From Polynucleobacter yangtzensis (GTDB lineage: Bacteria; Pseudomonadota; Gammaproteobacteria; Burkholderiales; Burkholderiaceae), in contig NZ_LOJI01000001.1 in assembly GCF_001595965.1 (NCBI RefSeq), positions 464,178 through 528,177 on the forward strand: 64,000 nt of DNA, written 5' to 3'. Position 1 is the stretch's first letter; each line of letters begins with the position of its first letter. Below are positions 26,537 through 29,606 of the stretch, piece after piece. The notes under the pieces were generated by a model. That model did not search any database, had not been told where the DNA came from, and saw only the letters and a program-made list of their open reading frames with translations. Made by a program: the position numbers and the translations under genes.

Positions 26537-26848
26537 ATGGCAACTGCCAAGAAAAAACCTGCTGCAAAGAAACCAGCTGCGAAGAAAAAAGTAGCTGCTA
26601 AGAAGCCTGCTGCTAAAAAAGTAGCTAAAAAGCGTCCTGCTGCTAAAAAAGCTGCTGCTAAAAAGCCAGCTGCTAAAAAAGTAGCTAAAAAGAAGCCTGC
26701 TGCTAAAAAAGCTGCTGCTAAAAAGCCAGCTGCTAAAAAAGTAGCTAAAAAGAAGCCTGCTGCTAAGAAAAAAGCTGCTGCTAAGAAGCCTGCTGCTAAA
26801 AAAGCTGCAAAAAAGGTTGCTAAAAAGCGCGTAGCAAAAAAAAAGTAA
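26537..26848 (+). CDS. Lysine/alanine-rich histone H1-like DNA-binding protein (0-frame product)
   Basis: A 103-residue protein made almost only of Lys, Ala, Pro and Val in PAAKK/VAKK/AAAKK blocks, like the C-terminal tail of eukaryotic H1 and the HctB/AlgP-like proteins of beta- and gammaproteobacteria. Such proteins bind and compact DNA non-specifically. It contains a perfect 60-base tandem duplication. The 0-frame ends at TAA right after A9G, while the -1 frame continues for 42 more residues of the same composition. The true product may therefore be 145 residues long. It has a good GAAGGAG ribosome site and its own terminator. Confidence 0.85.
   Translation: MATAKKKPAAKKPAAKKKVAAKKPAAKKVAKKRPAAKKAAAKKPAAKKVAKKKPAAKKAAAKKPAAKKVAKKKPAAKKKAAAKKPAAKKAAKKVAKKRVAKKK
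26611..26760 (+). repeat. 60-base tandem repeat inside the histone-like gene
   Basis: Bases 26641-26700 and 26701-26760 are identical, coding for a 20-residue unit with AAKKAAAKKPAAKKVAKKKP. A preceding half unit at 26611-26640 differs by three bases. Copy number at such repeats changes easily by slippage or recombination. Confidence 0.95.
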
Positions 26849-28034: not shown

Positions 28035-29606
28035 TTATAAAAAATGAGGGGATAAATGTGATGTTGATGAATGGATTGAGGGGTAGAGCACCCGAACGCG
28101 ATAACCCGCGGCATTTGGTGGAAGTGAAATAGGTAGCTCAATCTGCAAAAGCTCGCCAGAAGGGACCCCCTTTTTTAAAAAATCAGGATGAGTCTCTTGC
28201 CAAGCTTTGGGAAGCCATTCTTGCGGGGTAAATTGCAGTGATTTGATTTCAGATTCTTCTGCATCAGTCAAAGTAATTTCTAAATTTGGCGGTAAAACGG
28301 TAATAGCAAGACGATTTTGTATCTCAACTTGCAACACAGATTGATTTGCGACGCTTTTAAGCCCTTCTCGCGCGTTTTCTGGTGAAAGTTTGGCTGAAGT
28401 TATTTTCCAGGCGGCAAAATCGCTTACAGCGCGATCTAGACATCCTAGTGCGCGACAAAGTTTTACATCTACACGCTGTAAAACAGAAAATGAATTCACA
28501 AAAAAAGAATTTGATGTGCCATCAACGCGTGGTGCAAGTGCTGGAAGCAATGAATTTCTTGAGAGATGCTCTCCAAAAACCAGCAAGAGCAGCAATAAGC
28601 CTGCGTAAAGGACTAATTTAAGACTTTTTTTTTGAGCAGATGGAGCAAAAGCAGCATTGGCAGCACTTTGCTTCTCTTGGTTGAGGGTGCCATGCAAACA
28701 AACCCAACCTTCGCTCTCTTTCCAGACTGAAAGCGATAGCCATTGACTGTAAGTGGCAATTACCTCTTCAGCTTGGCGTGCAAGTACGCCCGATAAAACA
28801 ATCCGACCGCCCAATTTCGTCTTATTTACCAGGGCAGGAGCAAGCACTTGCAGTGGGTTGGCCAAAATATTGGCCATAACGATGTCGTATTTGGTTTCTG
28901 CAGCTAACTCTGTGGCACCTTCATTTGGTAACACGAAAGTAATGGTGGTGTTATTGATTTCTGCATTACTGCGCGCTGCAACCATGGCTTGTGGGTCGAT
29001 ATCAGTGCCAATAACAGGATTGCAACCTAACTTAGCTGCAGCAATTGCCAAGATTCCTGAGCCACAACCGTAATCCAAAAGGCTCTGGTTCTGAAGATTA
29101 TTTTGTTGCTCAAGCCAAAGTAGGCATAAATGGGTGGTGGGATGACTGCCTGTACCAAAGGCAAGTCCTGGATCAACGGCTAGGCAAATCGCATTTGGAT
29201 CGGTTGGCGCATCGTGCCATGAAGGCACTACCCAAATGCGTTCACCAATTTGAATGGGTGCAAATTGACTTTGAGTTAGTCGAACCCAGTCTTGCTCTTC
29301 AACTGTTTTTTCTTGGGGAGGCGCTAAGTTAAAGCCGGCTTCTTTTAAGGAGGCAAGCAGCTCTGGGATAAATTCCGCGCTGCCAGAAGCGTCAATCTCA
29401 GGATTAAATAGGGCAGTTACTGCAGATCGATCCCAGGCTTGCACTTCTGGTGAAAGCCCTGGCTCTCCGTAGAGGGGATTTTCATCGTATCCACCAGCAG
29501 CATCATCCTCAACGGTGACTGATAGGGCGCCCAAGTCCAAAAGCGCATCACCTAAAGGCTCTGCGGTTTCGGCAGCTACCGTGAATACCAGTTCACGATA
29601 AGACAT
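28035..29606 (-). CDS. prmA: Ribosomal protein L11 methyltransferase PrmA fused to a membrane-anchored DUF3426 domain
   Basis: A 523-residue protein, against about 295 for PrmA alone. Residues 1-309 are Prm[11 protein letters not shown] start, [15 protein letters not shown], the AdoMet motif [19 protein letters not shown] (about 176-194) and MANILANPL. PrmA trimethylates L11. A linker leads to a membrane helix at about 329-345 ([16 protein letters not shown]). The following 170 residues ([50 protein letters not shown]) resemble DUF3426. In Burkholderiales a separate zinc-ribbon DUF3426 gene usually follows prmA; here its zinc finger is gone and the remainder is joined in frame. Confidence 0.85.

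Follow-up and report, generated by a model that had tools for sequence, protein, structure and literature searches.

A prmA-DUF3426 fusion gene of Polynucleobacter with a conserved A9 run predicted to give soluble and membrane-tethered forms of the L11 methyltransferase

Ordinary PrmA is a soluble protein that ends at about 300 amino acids, as it does in the other genera that we sampled across the order. DUF3426 is found in proteins with a zinc ribbon and a transmembrane (TM) helix, such as Caulobacter ZitP and the neighbors of prmA in Burkholderia, which combine a cytoplasmic N-terminal part, one helix, and a periplasmic DUF3426 domain. For ZitP itself, the periplasmic DUF3426 domain is described as needed for pilus biogenesis via the polar recruitment of CpaM (PMC5182063). 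A further system of relevance is dnaX of Thermus thermophilus, in which a run of nine A's lies within one long frame and slipped transcripts give rise to a shorter protein (PMC1088944, PMC5009743). Here, we describe a gene of Polynucleobacter yangtzensis that shares features with each of these systems. Judged by title and abstract, papers that deal with both Polynucleobacter and slippage contain nothing on this gene. It lies in a stretch of 64,000 nucleotides (the window), and its features are collected in Table 1.

A preliminary description of the window had read the gene as full PrmA joined through a linker and a membrane helix to a DUF3426-like domain in one frame of 523 codons, and the open reading frame, the Pfam and TIGR00406 matches, and an AlphaFold model all bear this out. 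The PrmA part matches PF06325 at residues 3 to 307 with 283.9 bits, covering positions 2 to 294 of the 296 in the profile, and exceeds the cutoff of TIGR00406, the NCBIfam prmA equivalog (228.6 versus 183.15 bits); among PDB entries it matches the L11 methyltransferases 3grz and 1ufk/2nxc. It comprises an L11-recognition domain and an S-adenosylmethionine (SAM) methyltransferase with the motif DYGCGSG at residues 178 to 184, and two segments of 14 and 12 residues are invariant through the group. In its full-length domain, SAM motif, conserved segments, and operon position after accB-accC, the protein is like other PrmA proteins, from which it differs by the C-terminal addition of linker, membrane helix, and DUF3426. 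The latter domain was matched by PF11906 at residues 335 to 506 with 56.2 bits (gathering cutoff, 27.7), which removes the earlier reservation that a domain search might not find it. Also in line with the preliminary description, Pfam gave no zinc-ribbon match in the 523-residue protein. Unlike in ZitP-type proteins, PrmA replaces the zinc ribbon as the cytoplasmic part.

The AlphaFold model, for which 34 related fused proteins served as input, consists of the methyltransferase, a linker with little order, a single long helix (residues 327 to 357), and then a beta sandwich, with a pLDDT of 84 for the DUF3426 part. This beta sandwich is predicted to be periplasmic. Lysine and arginine residues directly ahead of the helix indicate an N-in topology, and the proposed orientation with PrmA in the cytoplasm and DUF3426 outside is likely. 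Fold comparison of DUF3426 gave only weak Ig-like matches (Wzt carbohydrate-binding domain; TM-score below 0.4 by query length), which were set aside. The analogy with Caulobacter ZitP suggests a recruiting role for DUF3426 in the envelope.

Table 1. Features of the fused gene and of the neighboring histone-H1-like gene (positions in the window)
Feature	Position	Strand	Remarks
PrmA-DUF3426 fusion gene	28035..29606	-	Single frame of 523 codons, ATG to TAA; 523 residues predicted with A9
PrmA domain, residues 1-309	28680..29606	-	Pfam PF06325, TIGR00406, PDB matches
Linker, residues 310-328	28623..28679	-	13-48 aa across the genus, sequence variable too
A9 homopolymer, C-AAAAAAAAA-G, codons Q325 K326 K327	28625..28633	-	Candidate transcriptional slippage site; conserved, silent-site freeze
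TAA stop after +1 A (A10)	28618..28620	-	Predicted product of 329 aa ending ...AQKKKS
TAG stop after A8 or A11	28613..28615	-	Predicted products of 330 aa (A8) or 331 aa (A11) ending ...VLN
Transmembrane helix, about residues 329-346	28569..28622	-	AlphaFold helix 327-357, hydropathy
DUF3426 domain, residues 347-523	28038..28568	-	Pfam PF11906, AlphaFold
Second stretch with suppressed synonymous change, DUF3426 residues about 383-450	28257..28460	-	Ratio 0.34-0.71
Histone-H1-like Lys/Ala/Pro-rich ORF	26537..26848	+	
Second conserved A9, end of H1-like ORF	26836..26844	+	
C-terminal extension of H1-like protein, 42 residues	26845..26973	+	In frame only after +1 A; VSKPAAKK...LNPAAAWPFPTGTRP, stop

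The fusion belongs to Polynucleobacter, a very abundant freshwater genus. A whole-protein search found the fused frame in most of 186 Polynucleobacter genomes, and at least 136 distinct open reading frames among the fetched loci carry PrmA and DUF3426 in one frame, so that the fusion extends across the genus. Its carriers, where named, are Polynucleobacter species, next to metagenome bins, and many of the genomes are closed. Outside the genus, no fusion was found in a sample of 120 genomes of the order or in one of 250 genomes of the family; in the other genera of these samples, the PrmA match ends at about residue 305 to 340 and DUF3426, where seen, occupies a separate frame. An indel at the junction, raised as a concern in the preliminary description, is excluded by the single frame in 136 distinct loci and many closed genomes. 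Homopolymers are error-prone, but the recurrence of this frame, together with purifying selection on both PrmA and DUF3426 within it (dN/dS, 0.037 versus 0.135 for the faster-evolving DUF3426), leaves a sequencing or assembly error that joined two genes with a negligible chance of being the explanation. None of the 136 genes contains an in-frame ATG with a Shine-Dalgarno-like 4-mer from which a separate DUF3426 protein could start.

The preliminary description held that relatives carry two adjacent genes, the second with an N-terminal zinc finger. This is correct for Burkholderia-type relatives, where the long gene after prmA encodes a zinc ribbon (found in L161, L162, and L171), a proline/alanine-rich stretch, a helix, and DUF3426, but not for the nearest unfused relatives. 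In these large-genome Polynucleobacter strains (L144 to L155), the second gene is short, encodes helix and DUF3426 without a zinc ribbon, and overlaps the end of prmA or sits close behind it. The loss of the ribbon therefore preceded the fusion, and the history is a stepwise one, from a zinc-ribbon/TM/DUF3426 gene beside prmA, through a TM-DUF3426 gene without the ribbon, to the fusion of prmA with this neighbor. Since each stage is represented among the genomes (two genes with the ribbon, two genes lacking it, and one fused gene), the origin of this fusion can be followed clearly. In a tree of PrmA plus AccC, most fused genes fall into two clades next to the unfused large-genome one; as the branching order of the three is not firm, the genes may have fused once or twice. 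Three split genomes (G112, G023, and G030; loci L141 to L143) are nested inside a fused clade, and hence their split is secondary. A separate start and stop in relatives, which might have argued against the fusion, is thus restricted to other genera, the unfused large-genome Polynucleobacter, and this one nested clade. Broken copies were seen in L130, L131, and L132 (G032, G033, and G031), genomes that presumably resemble those of reduced symbionts; DUF3426 is disrupted in all three, and the PrmA frame is intact in two of them.

In most species, a run of nine consecutive A's is conserved at the fusion joint, just ahead of the helix. The preliminary description made no mention of it. Exactly nine A's are present in 112 of the 136 fused genes and ten in one more, although the linker that contains the run is otherwise variable. 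In the shuffle set, 112 genes have at least nine A's; their runs begin in codon phase 1 (101 genes), phase 2 (6 genes), or phase 0 (5 genes) and encode QKK, VKKN, LKKK, or KKKW. Since A9 is kept across three codon phases and different residues, it is the bases that are conserved and not the amino acids. Pattern searches of the source genome (2.05 Mb) yielded five runs of exactly A9 and no longer A runs, and the neighboring accC gene contains no A or T run of eight or more in 105 genomes.

Could the run simply be a by-product of a plain fusion that makes only the full-length tethered protein, arising from pre-helix lysines and AT-leaning codon use? Lysine and arginine ahead of a membrane helix are expected from the positive-inside rule, the fused frame is open everywhere, and early branches are fused without A9, all of which would fit. 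However, synonymous shuffling predicts that 24 +/- 4 genes would have at least nine A's in a row, as against the 112 observed, a contrast that overstates significance because related genomes are not independent. Counts based on the tree are safer. On the gene tree, the run codons Q, K1, and K2 underwent 0, 0, and 3 silent third-base changes, whereas in accC, conserved K and Q codons have a median of 13. CAG is never used at the run codons and AAG is confined to the G-following clade, while the serine codon after the run is AGY in 75 of 75 cases, versus 38% in the PrmA part. Likewise, silent change, scanned along the fusion gene with a correction for length, drops sharply at residues 323 to 331 (ratio, 0.36). 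Together with the survival of the run through changes of residues and codon phase, and with the enrichment of shifted-frame stops described below, these data make a plain fusion an unlikely explanation.

Slippage is not a requirement for the fusion, given that several early-branching lineages (L045, L168, and L172 to L176) are fused and have no usable run. In all, 23 of the 136 fused genes have no run of nine or more, which counts against slippage; five of these have A AAA AAG, three others have A7, and several early branches have none. Within a single clade, two loci (L182 and L183) have A9 in another codon phase (KKKW) and their relatives L169 and L178 to L180 have A6, which suggests an independent gain of the run. 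Silent change is also suppressed in a second block within DUF3426, with a minimum at residues 412 to 421 (ratio, 0.34), and such blocks in the fusion gene are therefore not all due to slippage. In this block, no Rfam element was matched and no clear promoter was found. An overlapping gene on the reverse strand was rejected as its cause, as no frame is consistently stop-free.

Directly downstream of the run, both shifted frames close. Stops precede mid-helix in both of these frames in 105 of 113 A9/A10 genes, and a stop is met within 12 codons in 96% and 96% of cases in the two frames, compared with 73% and 40% after synonymous shuffling. The gene thus shows three sequence hallmarks of programmed dnaX-type slippage, namely, a homopolymer of at least nine in the coding frame, stops in the shifted frames, and conservation at the nucleotide level. 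As its A9 in a long frame with close stops in both other frames matches the layout of Thermus dnaX, we infer two products, a soluble PrmA of 329 to 331 residues and a membrane-tethered PrmA-DUF3426. It differs from Thermus dnaX in that the second product would lose a membrane anchor and not a replisome domain, and in that slippage is here predicted from sequence.

RNA polymerase probably slips on the A9 run. The full protein, with cytoplasmic PrmA, one helix, and periplasmic DUF3426, would then be encoded by transcripts with 9 or 9+3n A's, whereas those with 8, 10, or 11 A's would reach a stop codon shortly after the run and yield soluble PrmA of about 330 residues. A sizeable share of the transcripts is predicted to encode this form without the anchor, and the two forms of the enzyme would be made at a fixed ratio, as for Thermus dnaX. 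We consider it probable that the fused gene gives rise to soluble and tethered PrmA by polymerase slippage in this way. The preliminary description had envisaged L11 methylation tethered to the inner membrane. The helix and topology support a tether, but with a conserved A9 and stops in the other two frames, which predict soluble PrmA as well, tethering alone is probably an incomplete picture. The tethered form would supply DUF3426 to the envelope and may bring part of the PrmA to ribosomes bound to the membrane, a role that is the weakest step of this model. A further point against slippage here is that, for E. coli RNA polymerase, A runs are less slippery than T runs (PMC6260861).

The same two products would result if ribosomes shifted frame or slid on AAA AAA during translation. 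The run includes an in-frame A AAA AAA heptamer, A AAA AAG occurs in five genes of one clade (L066 to L068, L122, and L128), and ribosomes are reported to slide on poly-A (PMC4363877). Yet for such a shift the heptamer would be enough, while 112 genes have retained nine A's and few carry A AAA AAG. Moreover, folding of six sampled genes showed no obvious common stem-loop, and nine A's is the length at which polymerase slippage is documented. The strict run length of nine thus favors the polymerase, and we regard a ribosomal mechanism as quite improbable. In the clade with A AAA AAG, the linker A9 became A7 followed by G. This is the heptamer of E. coli dnaX-type ribosomal frameshifting, and a switch of mechanism in these lineages is possible.

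Natural variants of the run bear on a third alternative, in which replication slippage at A9 would toggle the membrane part between cells. The fused gene of L133 has A10 and belongs to the sister clade of L141 to L143, which have A9, and one broken copy (L131) has A8 and encodes only the short PrmA. However, a phase-variable locus should show many off states, and nearly all genomes stand at exactly nine, with out-of-frame copies limited to one nested clade and the broken copies; this alternative is therefore very unlikely. In the nested clade (L141 to L143), A9 terminates PrmA at once (QLKKKLLN, stop) and DUF3426 lies one base out of frame. This DUF3426 is under purifying selection (dN, 0.09; dS, 0.46; dN/dS, about 0.2 for L142 versus L143). 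Because its frame has no upstream ATG start, only a TTG inside prmA, slippage is the likely means by which DUF3426 is made in these genomes, with initiation at the TTG as the alternative. In mxiE-type slippage of Shigella, it is the long form that requires slippage. The layout of L141 to L143 is of this type, as is that of the histone-H1-like gene discussed below; these are different genes from mxiE, however, and in the fusion gene of the window it is the transcript without slippage that encodes the long form.

Slippage in Polynucleobacter is also supported by a second A9, about 1.8 kb from that of the fusion gene, at the end of the histone-H1-like gene. The open reading frame ends GCA AAA AAA AAG TAA, and its run, which is A9 in 92 of 114 distinct loci, precedes GTAAGTAA. 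Of 125 genomes, 114 have the conserved ending in a frame other than that of the main open reading frame, and the remaining 11 have the two continuous. In the former, only a frameshift gives access to the ending, which makes this site the stronger of the two cases and, judged by its sequence, a strong candidate for programmed slippage in its own right. Whether slippage serves as a built-in ratio setter for the forms of the L11 methyltransferase, reused in the adjacent nucleoid-protein gene as a regular tool of the genus, is in our view an evenly balanced proposition. If slippage occurs as proposed, the fusion gene would join the few known cellular genes that owe two proteins from a single frame to a conserved homopolymer; in this instance, only one of the two would have a membrane anchor, and a nucleoid protein provides the second conserved candidate in the same genus. 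Gene callers would then describe just one of two likely products. As the run can be broken silently so that one form alone is made, the gene would also allow a direct test of whether methylation of a ribosomal protein is needed at the membrane. The H1-like site is also A8 in L066 to L068 and L122, where the downstream region was covered.
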